Part shown: one piece after another, positions 2,070 through 42,938 of the stretch
Position numbering within the stretch: the first letter of the stretch is position 1
How the letters are laid out: every line of letters starts with the position of its first letter
Made by a program: the position numbers and the translations under genes
The notes under the pieces: generated by a model
Seen by the model: only the letters and a program-made list of their open reading frames with translations
Database searches by the model: none
What the model was told of the DNA's origin: nothing
Origin: a virus
IMG/VR virus record: IMGVR_UViG_3300032897_000001
Span: 1 to 64,000 of that record
DNA length: 64,000 nucleotides
Strand: one strand, 5' to 3'

Positions 2070-2369
2070 ATGATCTACTCTGACTGGAAGATCGGGGACA
2101 CAGCGCTTGTGGCTGATTACACCTTGGCAGATGCCACTGTGGCGGTGTCTAGAACACGTCCTGTGAAGGTGGTGGCATGGACAGGCAATGACACAGACGG
2201 GCGCAACCATTGTTGTGTCGTCGAACATACAGACGGGCGCCGCGAAGCTGTGCACTTCGTCCGGCTGTCTCGGATTGAGGAAGGGTTGAGAACGGCTATC
2301 GAAGGCTTGATGTCGCAATATGGCTGGTCGGCAGTTGCGGCGGAAGTCGGCAGATATGCACCAAAGTAA
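2070..2369 (+). CDS. Conserved small phage protein, tandem copy 1
   Basis: A 99-residue protein, ATG at 2070 after GAAAGGAAAACAACA. It begins MIYSDWKIGDTALVADY and ends near SQYGWSAVAAEVGRYAPK. It is closely similar along its length to the next gene (2429), so the pair is a tandem duplication. The WKIGDTAL start and beta-rich first half suggest a small barrel domain. No known function recognised. Confidence 0.7.
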   Translation: MIYSDWKIGDTALVADYTLADATVAVSRTRPVKVVAWTGNDTDGRNHCCVVEHTDGRREAVHFVRLSRIEEGLRTAIEGLMSQYGWSAVAAEVGRYAPK

Positions 2370-2428
2370 TCTGGAAGGCGCACATTTCGAGGCGCCGCGA
2401 CACTTGGTATCCGAATAGGAGACGAATA

Positions 2429-2770
2429 ATGATTCGCCATGAATGGAAGATCGGGGACACAGCACTTGTGGTCGATTACGTGAGCACAAACGAGCCTTTC
2501 ACCGCGGTTAGAACGCACCCTGTGAAGATAGTGGGGTGGCGGCCAGAAGACGCCACAGACGGGCGTAATCAAGTCTGTGCCGTCGAATTCCCGAACGGTG
2601 TCCGGGGATATGTGCACGTTGCCCGGTTGTCCCGTGTCGAGGAAGAACTGAAAACGACTATCAACGACTTGGTGTCACAATACGGTTGGTCGGCGGTTGC
2701 TTCGGAAGTCAGCAGGCATGCGCCATATGGGGAGGTTGCCTGGGCGCTGGATGCGCGGCGCAAAACGTAG
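2429..2770 (+). CDS. Conserved small phage protein, tandem copy 2
   Basis: A 113-residue paralogue of the preceding gene. It shares WKIGDTALVVDY, DGRNQVCAVE, ARLSRVEEEL and SQYGWSAVASEVSRHAP, and adds a short C-terminal extension. An AGGAG lies upstream of the ATG at 2429. Divergence from its twin is clear at the protein level, so the duplication is not recent. Function unknown. Confidence 0.7.
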   Translation: MIRHEWKIGDTALVVDYVSTNEPFTAVRTHPVKIVGWRPEDATDGRNQVCAVEFPNGVRGYVHVARLSRVEEELKTTINDLVSQYGWSAVASEVSRHAPYGEVAWALDARRKT

Positions 2771-2875
2771 GTTTGGTGGTGCGGGGAGCGGGAGGGCTTG
2801 ACAGGGCACATTTACCCATGCTTTAAGCCACACACTCTGCAAAAAGAACTTGCTAGTGGTATATAGTTCTGTGGA

Positions 2876-3060
2876 GAGTAGATATCCCGGCCTGCCGGGT
2901 CAAAAGCAGGAGGATACAGAGGGATATGTATATTTTCCGACGTATCCCGAAGGAATATCCCGGCCTGCCGGGTTAAAAGCAGGAGTTGGACAGAGTCGAT
3001 TTCCCTACTGCGGTAATGCGGTTGAAGAAATACCCCGGCCTGCCGGGTTAAAAGCGGGAG
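2876..3060 (+). CRISPR. CRISPR-like array A (three repeats, two spacers)
   Basis: Three copies of the 37-bp repeat at 2876-2912, 2949-2985 and 3024-3060, separated by unrelated spacers of 36 and 38 nt. The first two copies carry a few changes (ATATCCC for ATACCCC; GTCAAAAG in the first). The third ends AGCGGGAG. All keep the CCCGGCCTGCCGGG hairpin. The last repeat ends 3 nt before the GTG start of the TnpB/Cas12-like gene, and its GCGGGAG probably doubles as that gene's ribosome-binding site. Confidence 0.65.
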
Positions 3061-3063
3061 CTA

Positions 3064-4521
3064 GTGGTGTACACAGAATCAGAAGATTCTAACATAGATA
3101 GTGTGCTCAATTCGAGGGAAGCTAACACAGATCAGCCGCGCATTGATCGCCGTTATTCGTGGAAGTTGCACCCCACAGCACAGCAAGATGCGCGCTTACA
3201 CGAACAGGCCCGCATGTGCACCGAATTGTGGAACGCACTACTCGAAATTGATTTTATATTACAGAATGTCCGGGCATGGGTTTTTGATAAGGACGCCTTG
3301 GGGCCATTGGTATTCGATTTAGCGGGGAACCTGCGGGTTGTGTCCTTGGCAGATATTTTGCTGCGCAGGCAATACGGCTTGCGCACACGTGCAGAGCATC
3401 TGGTTACTGCGATCGGTGCCGCTGGTGCAATTCAGTATCAGCCGGGACAAGATATCCGCACACGGTTGCCTAGCGCGTATGATCGCGGGTACTGGATCAC
3501 GCAGTTACGCGACTTGCAGCCCGAATGGCTGGCATTGTCAACATGGACACCTAGACAGGTTAGCGAAAATCTCGCCAAGGCATGGAAACACTGTTTTACG
3601 CCCCGCGCTAAGCGCATTCCCGGAAGAAAGTACGGCGCACCGCGGTTCAAATCGCTGGCGAATGCCTTTGCCATACCCCATCGGTTTGCCAGTGGCTGCC
3701 GGTTGGAACATGCCGGTATGCACGAACGCAGTTGGTGGCTTTATCTAGACGGTGTTTCCGATCAGAAGCTGTGGCGCCGTGGGCGCGGACGCGGCGACGT
3801 GTGGGCACGCGGAAAGCTGCCATCACCAGCGCTTAAGTGGACGGACGCGGATGTGCGTCATGTTGATGGACACTGGGAAATATCCGCTGCTGTTGTCATG
3901 GAACAGCGCCGCACTTTGATCGGGCGCGGTATTCCGATCACGGTTGAGTTCTGTGTCATTGGTGGTCTTGCACTGGTCAATAACGAGCAAGTGGAACTTG
4001 TCGAATTGATAAAGGCACAGGAACTGGACGTTAAACATGCAAATATGCAGCGTGAATTTGATCGGAATTGGCCACGCAACAAGCGCTGGACCGATGATGA
4101 ATGGAATAACCGTTGTGAGGATAAGGCCGAAATCGGCAGGCTTGCGTCACACATCGCCCGAGTGCGCCGCAACGCACTCCATGTGTGGACTAAGCAACTG
4201 GTAGAACGCGCAAGTGTGTTGACTATTATTAAACCGGCTTCTATCAAGGATTTTACACAGACGGCCCGCGGAAATGTGAAAAACTGGGGTGCGGCCGTTG
4301 AGATAGTGTCGGAAATTAACCGCGACACGCTATCACATGCGCCGGCTATGGCTGTGCAGATGCTGGAATACAAGGCGGAAGAACTTGGCATTCCGTGTCA
4401 AGTCATTGAAGATGATACACCAGAAATTTCCATTAGTAAGGCATTTGTTGCCAGTCGTAAGGTATCCCGACGCAGCGCGCGCGAGACAAAGAAAGGCGTG
4501 AGTGAAAATGAGAAAGATTAA
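3064..4521 (+). CDS. Nuclease-dead TnpB/Cas12-like RNA-guided protein
   Basis: A 485-residue protein with TnpB/Cas12 (type V) layout: N-terminal RYSWKLHPTAQQ (res 30-41), PRFKSLAN (193-200), a beta segment WEISAAVVME (271-280), then a RuvC-like half with an arginine-rich bridge helix (res 355-381) and the LEYKAEELG motif (434-442). The catalytic residues appear lost: the RuvC-I aspartate position holds Phe296 (VEFCVIGG), the RuvC-II glutamate position holds Lys390 (TIIKPAS), and the zinc finger with the third acidic residue is missing after residue 455. It should bind guide RNA and DNA without cutting. GTG at 3064 or 3067. Arrays A and B flank it. The family assignment is from motifs only. 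Confidence 0.72.
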   Translation: MVYTESEDSNIDSVLNSREANTDQPRIDRRYSWKLHPTAQQDARLHEQARMCTELWNALLEIDFILQNVRAWVFDKDALGPLVFDLAGNLRVVSLADILLRRQYGLRTRAEHLVTAIGAAGAIQYQPGQDIRTRLPSAYDRGYWITQLRDLQPEWLALSTWTPRQVSENLAKAWKHCFTPRAKRIPGRKYGAPRFKSLANAFAIPHRFASGCRLEHAGMHERSWWLYLDGVSDQKLWRRGRGRGDVWARGKLPSPALKWTDADVRHVDGHWEISAAVVMEQRRTLIGRGIPITVEFCVIGGLALVNNEQVELVELIKAQELDVKHANMQREFDRNWPRNKRWTDDEWNNRCEDKAEIGRLASHIARVRRNALHVWTKQLVERASVLTIIKPASIKDFTQTARGNVKNWGAAVEIVSEINRDTLSHAPAMAVQMLEYKAEELGIPCQVIEDDTPEISISKAFVASRKVSRRSARETKKGVSENEKD

Positions 4522-4744
4522 TCCCGCGATCAAGACTGAAATCGACATTCTTGCTGAATCCGTGGACATGGCCAGAACAGCCTCTAAGAGAGTTCTTGAT
4601 GGCTGTGCGCCGAATGCCTGCAATGTGGCTGTGCGTGCATCACGCTCACTTCAAGGTGCTGCAATGGGGATGATCCGTGCACGGCTTGTAGGTAACAAGA
4701 TTGCCTATCTGGAGTCGAATCTGGACGACACCGGAGAAAAATGA
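4508..4744 (+). CDS. Small helical protein coupled to the TnpB/Cas12-like gene
   Basis: A 78-residue protein whose start (ATG 4508, or GTG 4502) lies inside the end of the TnpB/Cas12-like gene, which points to translational coupling. The sequence is mostly helical (ETEID-like start, ASKRVLDGC, two cysteines in CAPNAC, RASRSLQGAAMGMIRARL). No family recognised. Its position between the effector and array B makes it a candidate partner of the RNA-guided complex. Confidence 0.6.
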   Translation: MRKINPAIKTEIDILAESVDMARTASKRVLDGCAPNACNVAVRASRSLQGAAMGMIRARLVGNKIAYLESNLDDTGEK

Positions 4745-4918
4745 TTGACGCTGCGAGCGCTGTAATGCTAACAAAAAGCCGGCCAGCGCTAGCATGTTGA
4801 AATAACAGCGGATTTCGGCGAAATCCGCTGGCGCTGCCTAGCAAGGCGAGTGCCATGACATGGAGCACTCGCAAACGGGCGAAATAGCGCAATAAATTGC
4901 GGGTGTTGGCATAAGGCT
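4745..4918 (+). ncRNA. Structured leader of array B, candidate guide-RNA scaffold
   Basis: No gene here. It contains AGCGGATTTC-GGC-GAAATCCGCT (4807-4829, 10 bp), GCGAGTGC/GCACTCGC (4846-4872, 8 bp) and an imperfect pairing of two AGCGCT/ATGCT segments between 4755 and 4795. It ends with AAGGCTGAAGAAATA, the lead-in also found at 1897. It may be the 5' part of the array transcript, a scaffold or tracr-like RNA. I see no clear anti-repeat. Confidence 0.4.
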
Positions 4919-5252
4919 GAAGAAATACCCCGGCCTGCCGGGTTAAAAGCAGGAGGGCAAGTGATGCGCCCACGTCTAGCCATGGATCGCGCCGAAGAAA
5001 TACCCCGGCCTGCCGGGTTAAAAGCAGGAGGCCCGACGCGAGGCAAAGCAACGCCGGCAATTGGAGAAGAAATACCCCGGCCTGCCGGGTTAAAAGCAGG
5101 AGTAGGGCGGGCGAACGACATCATAGGCAGTGTAGGACAGCTTGAAGAAATACCCCGGCCTGCCGGGTTAAAAGCAGGAGATCGCGGGCGGACAACTCGT
5201 CATCCGGCTGGTTGTGAAGAAATACCCCGGCCTGCCGGGTTAAAAGCAGGAG
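4919..5252 (+). CRISPR. CRISPR-like array B (five repeats, four spacers)
   Basis: Five essentially identical 37-bp repeats start at 4919, 4994, 5066, 5144 and 5216. Each has the hairpin core CCCGGCCTGCCGGG and tail TTAAAAGCAGGAG. The spacers are unrelated: 38, 35, 41 and 35 nt. A repeat of 37 nt with spacers of 35-41 nt is normal CRISPR geometry for type V. Oddly, every period (75, 72, 78, 72) is a multiple of 3, so one frame runs through the array encoding EEIPRPAGLKAG at each repeat. This leaves a small chance that it is a coding repeat. No cas1, cas2 or other adaptation gene is nearby. Confidence 0.7.
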
Positions 5253-8233: not shown

Positions 8234-8270
8234 GTTTGAATAACCCGGCCTGTCGGGTCAAAAGCAGGAG
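8234..8270 (+). repeat. Solitary diverged copy of the 37-bp repeat
   Basis: Core CCCGGCCTGTCGGG (one stem base changed, G-U pairing kept) and tail TCAAAAGCAGGAG. The sequence downstream begins ATAAGCCGCAATTGGGAAAA. It stands alone between the 8221 stop and the 8406 gene. The 135 nt after it hold no convincing start codon, although one frame reads like a short peptide. Confidence 0.8.
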
Positions 8271-11216: not shown

Positions 11217-11388
11217 TTGGATAAAACGCAGACGGGAATGCACCAAGTGCTTTGGCGGATACTGCGAAGGCGGGTTTCCAGGCTATCGGTGGGTAGTAGT
11301 ATGCGAGTGCCAACCGCGGACTATGCCGGAGTTGATTGAGGCAGCGGCACAGGAACGCGCGGCGAACGTTGCTGTCAAGCAGTCTTGA
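11209..11388 (+). CDS. Small Cys-rich (zinc-binding) protein
   Basis: 59 residues, overlapping the previous gene by 8 nt. CTKCFGGYC and CECQP provide five cysteines in a ribbon-like arrangement. Its stop codon lies within the first bases of the repeat copy at 11383. Confidence 0.55.
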   Translation: MTDWIKRRRECTKCFGGYCEGGFPGYRWVVVCECQPRTMPELIEAAAQERAANVAVKQS

Positions 11389-11419
11389 ATACCCCGGCCT
11401 GCCGGGTTAAAAGCAGGAG
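11383..11419 (+). repeat. Solitary copy of the 37-bp repeat upstream of gcrA
   Basis: Core and tail (CCCGGCCTGCCGGG, TTAAAAGCAGGAG) match the array repeat exactly. The would-be guide starts AAAAAGTAGACCATGACAGA and so covers the region just before the GcrA homologue. The terminal AGGAG is also a plausible ribosome site. Confidence 0.85.
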
Positions 11420-19400: not shown

Positions 19401-20020
19401 AGAACGACACATCTGCACAGGACGCAGCAACTTTCCTTGTGTCTCTAGAGATGCGCGTTGCTGATCCTGCACCAAACAATGACGCAACACGGCGGGTCCG
19501 CGATCTGGTGGCATTGGCCCTTGAATATGACAGAGAAAAAGCCGCGTTAGAGGACAGGCTAGAACACATCAATGCAGCCAGGATCAATATCCGACACAAG
19601 GAGTTGCCGCTGGCCATGGACACAGCGGGGTTGCTTGATACGACTTTCCCCGCGGAAAAGGGCGTTCCCGAAGCGCGAGTTTGCTTGAAGCCTTATTTCA
19701 AGGCGAATATTGCGGCGGACTGGGATGAGAGCAGGCGCCGCGCCGCGTTTGATCACTTAGCCGAATTGGGCGCCCAGGACTTGATCAAGACCGAAGTCAC
19801 GGTTTATTTTCCGCGAGAACAGCGAAAAGCAGCCGTTGACTTTGCCGCTGAAATCCGCGATCGGTATGGCGACATTCGCGTGCAGATCTCAGAAAATGTC
19901 CCGTGGATGACGTTGACGAGTTGGCTGAAGGAGCGCGTAAAGAAAAACGTGGTGACAGCGAAGACGCTGGAATTAATTGGAGGTATTATTGGACGGATAG
20001 TTGATATCAGGATTAGGTAA
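19397..20020 (+). CDS. Conserved phage protein
   Basis: 207 residues. N-terminal coiled coil (about res 35-58), then AMDTAGLLDTTFPAEKGVPE and LKPYFKANIAADWDE, a pattern I have seen in uncharacterised phage proteins beside replication genes. The end (ERVKKNVVTAKTLELIGG) is helical. It is followed by the first G-rich tract. Confidence 0.55.
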   Translation: MKNDTSAQDAATFLVSLEMRVADPAPNNDATRRVRDLVALALEYDREKAALEDRLEHINAARINIRHKELPLAMDTAGLLDTTFPAEKGVPEARVCLKPYFKANIAADWDESRRRAAFDHLAELGAQDLIKTEVTVYFPREQRKAAVDFAAEIRDRYGDIRVQISENVPWMTLTSWLKERVKKNVVTAKTLELIGGIIGRIVDIRIR

Positions 20021-20140
20021 GGCAGGCGTGGTCGGGCGTGGCGTGGATGGGCATGGTGCGGCTGGGTGAGGCAGGCGGGGTATGGCTCGTTTCGGTGCGG
20101 CTAGGCGCGGTGGGACCGGGCACGGTTAGGCAGGCCGCTA
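20021..20140 (+). repeat. G-rich degenerate pentamer tract 1
   Basis: Non-coding, with GG recurring about every five bases on the forward strand (GGCAGGCGTGGTCGGGCGTG-like). It sits between the 20020 stop and the 20169 gene. Related tracts at 21003, 21905 and 30614. Confidence 0.55.
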
Positions 20141-20168
20141 ATTTTCAACTTTAACCTGGAGAAGACAA

Positions 20169-20987
20169 ATGGCAAAAAAAGCAGAACTAACAACCGTGAT
20201 CTTTGATGAAATCAAGACGCGGCGGGTTATTGCCCACATCGTGGGCACAAGTCCACTAATCATGCACCGATTCGCGTTCAAGGCATGGCAGGAACTGCTT
20301 TGTCCGTCGCCGCGGAAGAACGCCGCGGAGCGTGCACAGACGCTTAAGCACAACCCACTGGAGGAATATCGCGGCTGTTTTTACAGGAATCGCAATCCCA
20401 ACGCACCAGCACTATTTCATTTGCCAAATGGAATGCCACATCAGAGCATTGCGGCTGCGGCGCTTGATATTCCGGGAACAACGCGCGCGGCCATGGAAAG
20501 GTGGACGCAAGTCGTTGACATTAATATTGATCTTTATGGCGTTCCACAATTGTTCATGGCAATGGTCAGGAACAGCGACATGAACAGAACACCGGACGTT
20601 CGCACGCGCCCAATTTTCCCGCGATGGGCATGCAAGCTGGAAATTGAGTACAAGCAGAACCCGCTGACAGATCAGAACGTCCTCAATTTGATTGCTGCGG
20701 CGGGTCTGATCGTTGGTTTTGGCGATTGGAGACCGCAAAAAGGTGGTCCTTATGGAAAATACCGCCTTGCTGAAGCACGCGATACTGAGTTCTTGGATAT
20801 CGTCAAGCGAGAGGCACGCGCACCGCAACAAGCAGCATACGATCAGCCGGCATACTATGACGATGACACGGCGGATTTGATGCTGTGGTTCACAGAGGAA
20901 ATGGCACGTCGTCGGCAGGATGACCCGGAAAGCCCGGGCAACTCGTTTGACGATGGTATCGAAATCGCTCCGGGCGGTTTGCAGTAA
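20169..20987 (+). CDS. Conserved phage protein, RAMP/Cas7-like pattern suspected
   Basis: 272 residues. VIAHIVGTSPLIMHRF at the N-terminus and AAGLIVGFGDWRPQKGGPYG near residue 180 resemble RAMP-type sequences (glycine-rich loop after a central ferredoxin fold), but this is a weak pattern match. The C-terminus is acidic (DDGIEIAPGG). ATG 20169 after CTGGAGAAGACAA. It lies between two G-rich tracts. Function unknown; a nucleic-acid binding role is plausible. Confidence 0.55.
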   Translation: MAKKAELTTVIFDEIKTRRVIAHIVGTSPLIMHRFAFKAWQELLCPSPRKNAAERAQTLKHNPLEEYRGCFYRNRNPNAPALFHLPNGMPHQSIAAAALDIPGTTRAAMERWTQVVDINIDLYGVPQLFMAMVRNSDMNRTPDVRTRPIFPRWACKLEIEYKQNPLTDQNVLNLIAAAGLIVGFGDWRPQKGGPYGKYRLAEARDTEFLDIVKREARAPQQAAYDQPAYYDDDTADLMLWFTEEMARRRQDDPESPGNSFDDGIEIAPGGLQ

Positions 20988-21002
20988 CACCATTTACGAA
21001 AA

Positions 21003-21370
21003 TGCTTCCCATGGTGCTTGTGTTTTGCGTTCGCCGTGGGAAGTCAGGCAAGGTTAGGCAGGCGGGGTCCGGTTGGGTCCGATATGGCTGGGTAATGTGG
21101 GGCACGGCATGGTGGGGCAGGCAGGGCTGGGTGAGCATTGGCAAGGCTGGGTCCGACATGGCAAGGCAGGCATGGTGCGGCAGGTTTCGGCAGGGCATGA
21201 TAAGTCTTGGCAAGGCAGGCGGGTTCTGGTGGGGTGGTTCACGGCGGGTTTCGGCTAGACGTGGCAGGCGGGGCATGCTCGGGTAGGGTAGGGCAAGATG
21301 CGGCATGACATGGCAAGGCAGGCTTGGTGCGGCTAGATCGGGCATGATCTGGCAAGGCGTGTAACGGCAA
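21003..21370 (+). repeat. G-rich degenerate pentamer tract 2 (long)
   Basis: About 370 nt without a credible gene. GG dinucleotides recur roughly every five bases (for example GGCAAGGCAGGCATGGTGCG), with strong G over C bias. Open frames across it encode only Trp/Gly/Arg-rich low-complexity peptide. It separates the 20987 and 21386 genes. Confidence 0.6.
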
Positions 21371-38473: not shown

Positions 38474-40105
38474 ATGACACAGACCAAAAGCCAGATTGTT
38501 GCGGCGGATGTCGCCGCTTTGTTGCGGGCGCGGAACCCGCTGATTTGGATCGTTACCCGGGAAGAATCTCGGGTTGAAACCAACATTGTGCAGGCCGCGG
38601 CTGCAGCGGGATATGGTGCCTGCACATGGGATGTCGCACAAGGCGCACGCACTATCGACGGGGCACGGGTGCCGGGTAGTGATGGCACTGAGGATGTCAG
38701 CGCCATGTTCGCGATGATAAAGGCACAATCCGAAAATGTGCAGCGTGCACAACGGTGCGTGTGGATCATGCGAGACTTGGCGCCATGGCTGCAAGGGCCA
38801 ATCGGCATGGTCACGTTGCGACAGCTTCGGAACCTTGCCCGGGCACTGCCCGGGACCGGGCGGAGCACGTCACAGGCAATCGTCGTGTTGACGACTTCCC
38901 CAAATGTCCCGGACGAATTGGAGGGACACGCGGTAGTGATCGAATGGCCCTTGCCCGATCGCGAGGAAATTGCGGCAATCCTTGACGCTGCAATCACGGC
39001 ACTGCCCGAAAACGATGAGAAAGGCGTGCCCGTTCGCGGTCCCGCAACACCAATCAATGGGGTTCGCGAGGCAGCAATTGATGCGGCGGTGGGGCTTTCC
39101 GGAGAGGAAGCCGCGGCGTGTTTTGCAAAATCCTTGGTACAGATCCGGAAGATCGACCCGCCGCTGATTACCAAGGAAAAGCGCCGCGTCATCTCCAAGG
39201 CAGGTGTTTTGGAGTGGTTCGAACCGCTTTCTGGCGGGTTGGGCGCTGTGGGTGGTCTCGACAATCTAAAAGATTGGCTGATTGCCCGGCGCGCCGCTTA
39301 TTCGCCACGTGCGCGGGCTTATGGTCTGCCAGCGCCAAAAGGTGCACTCCTTGTTGGTGTCCCCGGGTGTGGTAAGTCGCTCACAGCAAAGGCTGTTGCA
39401 ACAGCCTGGGGCGTGCCCTTACTTCGGATGGACCTGGGCGCATTGAAGAGTAAATATGTGGGCGAATCCGAAGGGAACCTTCGGAAAGCGTTCCAGATCA
39501 TTGAAGCCATGGGGCGGTGCGTCGTGTGGCTGGATGAAATTGAAAAAGCCTTGGCAGGCGCAACGCAAGGCGCTGCAGATGGTGGCGTGTCATCGGATGC
39601 TTTGGGCGCCATTCTAGGGTGGATGCAAGATCGTAGCGGACAGGCGTTTGTCGTAGCTACTGCAAACGACATCTCTGCGCTGCCTCCGGAATTGCTCCGT
39701 AAGGGGCGATTTGATGAAGTGTGGTTCGTTGATTTGCCGAACCCTGATGAACGGGCAAGCATCCTGTCCGCCGCATTACGGGCACACGGTCGGGACACCA
39801 AAACGCTTGTGTCCAAAGAACAGGATTCCGCTGCTGTAGTTGCAGCAACGGAAGGCTTTTCCGGAGCCGAAATTGCGGCACTGGTTCCGGACGCCATGTA
39901 TACGGCATTCGGAGATGGGGAACGGGAAATTACCGTGGATGATCTGTGGTTTGCTGCAAGGCAGACTGTGCCGTCAACCCGGACATCAGCAGAGAAGATT
40001 GAGAAATTACGGGAATGGTCCCGCAGTGGTCGCGCAAGGCTTGCCACACGGACAGTTTCCAAGGCGGAGACTACACAAGGAACCGGGCGCAAACTCGACA
40101 TCTGA
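38474..40105 (+). CDS. AAA+ ATPase, Ycf46-like
   Basis: 543 residues. The N-terminal domain (NPLIWIVTREESRVE) resembles the degenerate first AAA domain of Ycf46. The C-terminal AAA domain has Walker A GVPGCGKS (about res 298), Walker B CVVWLDEIEK (about 352) and an arginine-finger region LLRKGRFDE (about 413). It is a remodelling ATPase; the substrate is unknown, and such genes recur next to the 40631-type gene in phages. Confidence 0.8.
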   Translation: MTQTKSQIVAADVAALLRARNPLIWIVTREESRVETNIVQAAAAAGYGACTWDVAQGARTIDGARVPGSDGTEDVSAMFAMIKAQSENVQRAQRCVWIMRDLAPWLQGPIGMVTLRQLRNLARALPGTGRSTSQAIVVLTTSPNVPDELEGHAVVIEWPLPDREEIAAILDAAITALPENDEKGVPVRGPATPINGVREAAIDAAVGLSGEEAAACFAKSLVQIRKIDPPLITKEKRRVISKAGVLEWFEPLSGGLGAVGGLDNLKDWLIARRAAYSPRARAYGLPAPKGALLVGVPGCGKSLTAKAVATAWGVPLLRMDLGALKSKYVGESEGNLRKAFQIIEAMGRCVVWLDEIEKALAGATQGAADGGVSSDALGAILGWMQDRSGQAFVVATANDISALPPELLRKGRFDEVWFVDLPNPDERASILSAALRAHGRDTKTLVSKEQDSAAVVAATEGFSGAEIAALVPDAMYTAFGDGEREITVDDLWFAARQTVPSTRTSAEKIEKLREWSRSGRARLATRTVSKAETTQGTGRKLDI

Positions 40106-40313: not shown

Positions 40314-40368
40314 GGTCGAAACGGCGGGTTCCCGCCGTCGTGTCGTGAGGCGGCACCTGATGATGACC
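40314..40368 (+). ncRNA. Hammerhead ribozyme (type II), copy 4
   Basis: GGTC-GAAAC, stem III CGGCGGG/CCCGCCG, GTC, stem I GTGTCG/CGGCAC, CTGATGA, GACC. Confidence 0.82.
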
Positions 40369-40385
40369 AAAGAGGAGCAAACACA

Positions 40386-40557: not shown

Positions 40558-40613
40558 GGCCGAAACGGCGGATATTCCGCCGTCGTGCCGTGAGGCGGCA
40601 CCTGATGATGGCC
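40558..40613 (+). ncRNA. Hammerhead ribozyme (type II), copy 8
   Basis: GGCC-GAAAC, stem III CGGCGGA/TCCGCCG, GTC, stem I GTGCCG/CGGCAC, CTGATGATGGCC. It starts 2 nt after the upstream stop. Confidence 0.82.
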
Positions 40614-40630
40614 GAAAGGAAAGAAAACAC

Positions 40631-41488
40631 ATGGCGATCCAAGCTTCAACGCTACGTCCGGGACTTTTGGTTTCCCTGCGGACCAGCATCCAGGGCAATG
40701 TCAAATATGACAAAATTGACCTGGAAGAAGACCACGTAACAGAAGACGGACAAAGGAAGGCACGTTGGGAGACGGTGCGAACCATTGAAGATCCGGAAGA
40801 ACATGAACGCGCCCACAAGGCGCGGGACCGGGTAAAGCTGTTGGTCCGCAGTGCGTGCGTGTTCTCGGAATTCGGACTGCTTTGCCCGGATGGAAAGACA
40901 GGCGTCCTTGATGAACAAATCAAGGAAGCCCGGCGCGTGGCAGACGAGTTCAACGCCACATCCACTATAAGCAAGGTGCGGGTCTATGTGCTTGTTGGGC
41001 GTATCGCGCCCGATGATGCTGAGGCAGTGAAGGCGATTTCCAGTGAAATTCGGGAATTGCTCTCCACAATGGAGACTGGGATTTCAAACCTTGATGTGAA
41101 GTCCGTGCGTGCGGCTGCAGATCGTGCCAAAAATCTTGGTACAATGCTTTCCCCGGACGCTCAGGAACGCGTTCTAGAAGCTGTGGAAGCGGCGCGGGCA
41201 GTTGCCCGTAAAATTGTGAAGGCTGGGGAACAGGCCGCACAGGAGATAGACAGGACAACGATTGCGCGGATTGCCGCCGCACGAACGATGTTCCTGGATA
41301 TCGACACTGTGCCGACCGAAATCGGCACAGCAGAATCGGTTGGGCGTGCTGTTGATCTGGCTCCCGAGGTTCCCGAGGAAGTGCCGACACAGGATCAAGT
41401 GAAACACGAATCCTCTGTGCTGGATTTGGAACCCGTTGCGGATATCGGTGCAACGGTTGCGCCGCAAACCCGTAACGTCGAATTTTGA
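40631..41488 (+). CDS. Conserved phage protein
   Basis: 285 residues, ATG 40631. The N-terminal half has beta character (RPGLLVSLRTSIQGNVKYD); the rest is a long helical, probably oligomeric region. It typically neighbours the Ycf46-like ATPase in phages, so the two may cooperate. Function unknown. Confidence 0.65.
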   Translation: MAIQASTLRPGLLVSLRTSIQGNVKYDKIDLEEDHVTEDGQRKARWETVRTIEDPEEHERAHKARDRVKLLVRSACVFSEFGLLCPDGKTGVLDEQIKEARRVADEFNATSTISKVRVYVLVGRIAPDDAEAVKAISSEIRELLSTMETGISNLDVKSVRAAADRAKNLGTMLSPDAQERVLEAVEAARAVARKIVKAGEQAAQEIDRTTIARIAAARTMFLDIDTVPTEIGTAESVGRAVDLAPEVPEEVPTQDQVKHESSVLDLEPVADIGATVAPQTRNVEF

Positions 41489-41846: not shown

Positions 41847-42046
41847 AACTAGACCCGCAGTTACACGCCATTCTTGATGAATGGCGTGTGGCATTCGAAA
41901 TCGTCAACAAACGGTGTCACGCACAGATAAAAATAGACGGACGAGTCGTCCTTACAATACCTCGCAACGGGAAAATTCATCCCGTTGCGACACCAAACGC
42001 AAAAGCCGCATTGCGGCGGTTTCTCAGAAACAGGGAAGTGAAATGA
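41825..42046 (+). CDS. Small basic hypothetical protein (GTG start)
   Basis: 73 residues, GTG 41825 inside the end of the previous gene. IKIDGRVVLTIPRNGK resembles the double-stranded-RNA-binding HicA pattern. No HicB partner beside it. Weak. Confidence 0.45.
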   Translation: MARSQGIKLDPQLHAILDEWRVAFEIVNKRCHAQIKIDGRVVLTIPRNGKIHPVATPNAKAALRRFLRNREVK

Positions 42047-42558
42047 GCGATACGGGAATTTATCGACTCGGTGCCCGTCCAGCATTGCTTGGAGAGGTGC
42101 GAAATGCGTGGCTTGGCGCCATGTACGTTTGGAATGATGTAGCGATACGCCATCTCGGATTGCACGGATTCGGAATGGACCCTGCACAGCACAAGCGCAT
42201 ATGGAATGCGCACCACCATGTGAAAATGCCCGGGCATGAAATAATTGTGCTTTTAAGCACGATGGATTATGCTATCGCCCGGGCGAAAGATCGCAGGCAG
42301 GTGGTGGCGGCACTTGCCCGTTACGGGCAACAGCACCCGCGATCGAATCTAGGAACCCAGGCAAGGATTATCCGGGAAGCCTCCTTGGAAGATGGAGACT
42401 TCATTGCTTGGCTGGGGACATCTGCGGGTAATTATTGGTTTCTCTCCCGATCCGAAAATGAAGATCCGCCGCGGTTTTACGATCCGCGCCAAGAAACCAA
42501 GCACTTTGACATTGTCGCCGAAGCGCTAGCTTACAGCAAGGAGGAGTCAGCAACATGA
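42043..42558 (+). CDS. Hypothetical protein
   Basis: 171 residues from ATG 42043. Helical N-terminus with HHHVKMPGHEII. Unknown. It overlaps the next gene. Confidence 0.55.
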   Translation: MSDTGIYRLGARPALLGEVRNAWLGAMYVWNDVAIRHLGLHGFGMDPAQHKRIWNAHHHVKMPGHEIIVLLSTMDYAIARAKDRRQVVAALARYGQQHPRSNLGTQARIIREASLEDGDFIAWLGTSAGNYWFLSRSENEDPPRFYDPRQETKHFDIVAEALAYSKEESAT

Positions 42559-42938
42559 CTGTCTATATCTCGAATGCGTTTAGTCTCAACATGCTTGACG
42601 GTGTTAAGCAGACACAGAGCAGCAAGCCTTTTGTTGCTTTTCTCAACCAAATGAGAACGAAAATAACAACGGATGGTTCTGAGATAAGTGTCCCCTGGCT
42701 TCCTGATGCAGAAGGGGAAATCGTGTCCATTGTCGGACATGAACAGAGTGCGGCGATTTTCTCCGCTATCCTTGGTAAAGAAGTGAAATTCAACCGTCAG
42801 ACTATTGTGCTCTCCCCCGGAGATACCCTCATTGTTGGGCAGTACACGGGTCCGCGACTTCCCAAGGGTGCCACAACACTGCCCGAAGGCGCCTCCATTG
42901 TGTGGTGGCGCGTATGTGAATTATCCGTTAACGATTGA
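42555..42938 (+). CDS. AcrIII-1-like ring nuclease (DUF1874 family)
   Basis: 127 residues. MTVYISNAFSLNML, SIVGHEQSAAIFSAILGKEV and GDTLIVGQYTGPRLPKG are the family's key blocks. DUF1874 proteins include AcrIII-1 enzymes that degrade cyclic tetra-adenylate and so switch off type III CRISPR signalling; His62 in GHE matches the catalytic His. It would protect this phage from host type III CRISPR. Activity is inferred from sequence. Confidence 0.8.
   Translation: MTVYISNAFSLNMLDGVKQTQSSKPFVAFLNQMRTKITTDGSEISVPWLPDAEGEIVSIVGHEQSAAIFSAILGKEVKFNRQTIVLSPGDTLIVGQYTGPRLPKGATTLPEGASIVWWRVCELSVND

Follow-up and report, generated by a model that had tools for sequence, protein, structure and literature searches.

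A divergent DUF1874 protein of a contractile-tailed phage is predicted to be an AcrIII-1-type ring nuclease

Type III CRISPR immunity uses cyclic tetra-adenylate (cA4) as its alarm molecule. Of the ring nucleases found in phage genomes, AcrIII-1 occurs most often (36 of 28,114; PMC12409355). The AcrIII-1 of phage THSA-485A degrades cA4 and blocks Csx1-mediated immunity almost entirely in E. coli that carries both Csm and Csx1 (PMC7371418). The general-acid role in SIRV1 AcrIII-1 has been ascribed to His47 (PMC12830947, PMC7371418), and the H47A variant is inactive, with cA4 still bound at about 25 nM (PMC7213978). The H495A variant of Csx1-Crn2 likewise does not degrade cA4 (PMC7293037). The DUF1874/AcrIII-1 family is already known; what is new here is a divergent member that carries an unusual substitution at one near-invariant position.

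We analysed a stretch of 64,000 nucleotides (the window), which is the first 64 kb of the 100,794-base virus record IMGVR_UViG_3300032897_000001. Because genes for tail sheath, baseplate J, portal, terminase, capsid (major head protein), primase and DNA polymerase A are present, the record was assigned to a contractile-tailed phage; it also encodes a sliding clamp, a head protease and a tail fibre. For its terminase, the closest matches, about 53% identical, came from Pseudanabaena phage Pam3 and Rhizobium phages. The gene of interest occupies positions 42555–42938 on the plus strand, exactly as the initial annotation had placed it, and is a complete ORF from ATG to TGA, encoding 127 amino acids plus the stop. 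A Shine-Dalgarno-like sequence, AAGGAGGAG, was read at 42538–42546 (plus strand), 8 nt upstream of the ATG, and is a good, strong ribosome-binding site for this gene. The upstream ORF (42043–42558, plus strand; phrog_19610, function unknown) lies outside the DUF1874 family and overlaps the start codon. Its stop and the start codon share ATGA, an arrangement like that of translationally coupled genes, and the ORF is likely a co-transcribed neighbour. No sigma-70-like promoter was found between positions 41400 and 43400 of the window.

The encoded protein matched PF08960 (STIV_B116-like, DUF1874) with an E value of 8.8e-8 and 32.6 bits, above the gathering score of 26, and phrog_5063 of PHROGs with an E value of 1.4e-12. 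By tblastn it matched the DUF1874 gene of phage THSA-485A (E 5e-15, 37% identity over 93% of the query), a plasmid of Nitrosomonas stercoris (E 1e-16), and further DUF1874 genes on Thermus and Thermoanaerobacterium plasmids. Judged from these scores, the DUF1874 similarity proposed at first sight is real and well above chance. A single-protein search of IMG/VR gave no close relative from which selective constraint might be gauged. A search with a 4-row alignment gathered 54 IMG/VR loci and another 14 from genome contigs; the nearest relative was on an IMG/VR contig (48% by BLASTP). In a tree of 80 rows, comprising the window protein and 79 homologues, the protein fell in a bushy group of sequences from environmental phages, plasmids and metagenome-assembled genomes, separate from the archaeal-virus group, and its exact neighbours in that group were not resolved. 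It is a divergent yet ordinary new member of the DUF1874 family. No neighbour gene was conserved between this locus and other DUF1874 loci, which gave scattered, unrelated matches only.

Two observations concern other members of the set. Very divergent DUF1874 members in IMG/VR, on a branch of 3.07 changes per column, retained the catalytic His. A contig of an uncultured proteobacterium (L077, positions 2200–3921) encodes a 573-aa protein in which an N-terminal DUF1874 ring-nuclease domain is followed by a Csx1/Csm6-like HEPN effector, as judged by PF08960, PF09670 and the Csx1 model of PADLOC. In the Csx1-Crn2 fusion of Marinitoga, described in 2020 as unique, the two domains stand in the opposite order.

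An AlphaFold2 model built on 39 sequences had a mean pLDDT of 76.5. The core (residues 55–120) was near or above 90, residues 17–27 were below 50, and blocks within residues 11–50 were at about 46–56. All credible PDB matches found by Foldseek belonged to the DUF1874 family, namely AcrIII-1 (6scf), 2j6b, 2x4i, 2j85 and Csx1-Crn2 (8y7f/8y7g), and the best viral model in BFVD was that of THSA-485A (I3VYU1). In VIA-align, structures of the family scored Z 8.1–9.5 versus 2.5 for the next fold. The modelled protein has the AcrIII-1 fold.

The 80-row alignment located the motifs of the family, all on the plus strand. The first conserved motif, NAFSLNM (residues 7–13; 42573–42593), contains N7, F9, S10, L11 and M13, each at least 90% conserved. 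The sequence G61-H62-E63 (42735–42743) contains His62, which is invariant in 80 of 80 rows and aligns with His47 of SIRV1 AcrIII-1 and H495 of Marinitoga Csx1-Crn2. The early proposal that His62 of this GHE motif corresponds to the catalytic His is borne out by the SIRV1 alignment, and His62 is predicted to be the catalytic general acid. Arg81, in the N80-R81 motif (42792–42797), is invariant in the 80 rows, and Arg101, in R101-L-P-K104-G105 (42855–42869), corresponds to SIRV1 R85 and is present in all 79 other rows. Gly61, Asn7, Ser10, Gln96 and Gly105 are nearly invariant.

Two features depart from this pattern. The linker after the first motif and strand 1 (residues 14–54; 42594–42716, plus strand) is longer than in nearly all relatives, replaces the usual short strand-helix stretch and is poorly predicted; its residues 25–29 have almost no counterpart in the 79 homologues. 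The second is Lys104, at the position of SIRV1 E88, which we take to be an active-site residue. In the other 79 rows this position is Glu in 75, Pro in three and Ile in one, and Lys is found only in the window protein; the nearest relative, on the IMG/VR contig, has Glu. The Glu of R-L-P-E-G is therefore a common rather than a defining feature, absent here and from four of the 79 others. The change from Glu to Lys reverses the charge three residues from the invariant Arg101.

The main rival to an AcrIII-1 reading follows from this residue: a DUF1874 protein that binds cA4 and, owing to Lys104, cuts it slowly or never, which would make it a weakened ring nuclease or a sponge for cA4. Lys104 is unique among the 80 rows at a site that is Glu in 75, the inactive SIRV1 H47A protein can still bind cA4, at about 25 nM (PMC7213978), and sponges for cyclic nucleotides have been described in phages (PMC12409355). 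Nevertheless, the protein retains the catalytic His together with the two invariant Arg residues, none of which a pure sponge would need. Position 104 also tolerates change, because four other homologues lack the Glu, including the L077 protein, in which the domain is fused to a Csx1-like effector. In addition, the Lys104 codon, AAG at window position 42864, is one base off GAG and could be an error of metagenome assembly. We consider a sponge or weakened nuclease rather unlikely. That the Glu-to-Lys change and the longer linker together make a sponge-like AcrIII-1 variant, binding cA4 or another cyclic oligonucleotide with altered turnover or specificity, is a doubtful proposition as well.

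The same two deviations from the family, in the linker and at residue 104, might instead have reshaped the protein into a ring nuclease for another signal, for example the cyclic tri-adenylate of CBASS, and broad-specificity phage ring nucleases of a different fold do exist (Crn4; PMC12830947). Crn1–3, including the DUF1874 family, are reported to be cA4-specific (PMC12830947, PMC12409355), and the window protein carries no direct sign of altered specificity; we regard this reading as very improbable.

Taken together, the gene likely encodes an AcrIII-1-type ring nuclease of the DUF1874 family, small and dimeric, that is predicted from sequence and model to cleave cA4. This reading rests on the gene, the family, the fold, the conserved His and Arg residues and the phage context; judged from the scanned neighbours, the gene stands alone, outside any type III locus, and the virus record also encodes capsid, tail, terminase and portal proteins. 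Lys104 and the longer linker of residues 14–54, with its low-confidence model, count against it, and it is placed no higher than likely mainly because of Lys104. Thus, the initial annotation of an AcrIII-1-like protein stands as to family, fold, catalytic His and phage context, and the Lys104 that it overlooked lowers the certainty about full activity. In the mechanism we propose, a host type III CRISPR complex would detect phage RNA and its Cas10 subunit would make cA4. The phage protein, presumably a dimer, would bind cA4 in the groove between its two subunits, where Arg101 and residues near it would hold the substrate and His62 would act as the general acid. The ring would then be cut on two sides, giving linear A2>P or A2-P, and with cA4 removed, cA4-activated effectors such as Csx1 would stay off. 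The AcrIII-1 reading further supposes that the gene is expressed early and that the host has a type III CRISPR system signalling through cA4.

The gene is located among early-type DNA-metabolism genes. Homologues of the phrog_19610 neighbour lie between RecE-like and RecT-like genes in two Vibrio phages, and a superfamily II helicase gene is found further downstream. Such surroundings, with a RecE/RecT-associated family on one side and a helicase on the other, would suit a DUF1874-fold protein with some other phage role, such as DNA binding or gene regulation, and family members of ARV1 and betalipothrixviruses are annotated 'DNA binding protein'. Such a role is very improbable: the invariant set of G-H, N-R and R-L-P-x-G is the ring-nuclease set, which a DNA-binding protein would have no reason to keep, and activity has been established on both sides of the DUF1874 family (SIRV1 and THSA-485A). 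No type III CRISPR genes were recognised among the scanned neighbours.

Some other features of the window were also recorded. A 543-aa AAA ATPase of the FtsH/proteasome-activator/IetA type is encoded at 38474–40105 and is followed by phrog_11021 and phrog_11784 proteins (function unknown). A 40-nt direct repeat, 93% identical (40332–40371 and 40577–40616), borders small ORFs and includes GCCGCC-like and GGCGGC-like stretches. A degenerate, partly intergenic repeat cluster rich in GGCAGG/GGCAAGG lies at 20016–21368; its repeats are spaced by about 39 and 49 nt.

The phage also has a CRISPR-like locus at window positions 2864–5252. Its 37-nt repeats, GAAGAAATACCCCGGCCTGCCGGGTTAAAAGCAGGAG, form arrays of three and five (2876–3060 and 4919–5252) with spacers of 35–41 nt, and single copies occur at 1902–1938, 8234–8270 and 11383–11419. 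Other IMG/VR contigs yielded no copy of the repeat. Between the arrays lies a 485-aa ORF (3064–4521) with matches to Cas12u4/Cas12f and TnpB profiles. On visual inspection it seems to lack the acidic residues expected of RuvC and may be nuclease-dead. None of the six clear spacers matched the genome of the phage itself, with best hits no better than those of shuffled spacers, and the 5' seeds of the spacers targeted it no better than random stretches. Type V machinery does not signal through cA4, and because this locus is type V-like, an AcrIII-1 would leave it untouched. The suggestion that the ring nuclease gene and the CRISPR-like locus act as partners was therefore not upheld; the two can coexist, and nothing ties them functionally.

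To look for a host, 12 kb of the phage was compared with 377 Pseudomonadota genomes for near-exact DNA matches. The matches were codon-level only, mostly within the AAA ATPase gene, so no convincing host emerged from these genomes. Among 13 searched genomes carrying DUF1874 relatives, Cas10 scored above the curated Csm1 or Cmr2 cut-off in three, a proportion that says little since the genomes are mostly metagenome-assembled and some are small. The palm-domain model PF22335 also matched in E. coli and is not specific.

If the AcrIII-1 reading is correct, a phage of about 100 kb with a contractile tail joins the known carriers of AcrIII-1; its terminase is nearest those of Rhizobium phages and cyanophage Pam3, and its DUF1874 branch is known mainly from metagenomes. 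The reading would lend support to the idea that removing cA4 is a counter-defence used widely by phages. A natural Lys at a position that is almost always Glu also offers a ready test of the role of that residue.

Among known systems, the protein was compared with the ring nuclease Csx16, whose PADLOC profile (PDLC01147) matched the G-H region of the window protein weakly (E 1.5e-7). The structure of Csx16 resembles 2J6B (PMC12409355), and the same model also matched the DUF1874 part of the L077 protein. Pfam, PHROG and fold comparison placed the window protein in DUF1874 proper. Crn2 and Csx1-Crn2 of Marinitoga (PDB 8y7f; cA4-bound, 8y7g) have the same fold (Z 8.5–8.8) and the same catalytic His; these are encoded by the host, within a type III locus or as a fusion with Csx1, whereas the window protein is a stand-alone phage product. 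SIRV1 gp29 AcrIII-1 (PDB 2x4i; 6scf is the cA4-degradation structure) shares the fold and the residue pairs His47/His62, Arg85/Arg101, N8/N7 and S11/S10, but it comes from an archaeal rudivirus, is 28% identical and has E88 in place of Lys104. The nearest cultured-phage relative is THSA-485A AcrIII-1 (I3VYU1; Thermoanaerobacterium phage), likewise a stand-alone phage gene with the same fold and the same His and Arg motifs. It differs in belonging to a phage of a Firmicute, in its length (102 versus 127 amino acids), in its shorter linker, and in having RLPEG where the window protein has RLPKG.
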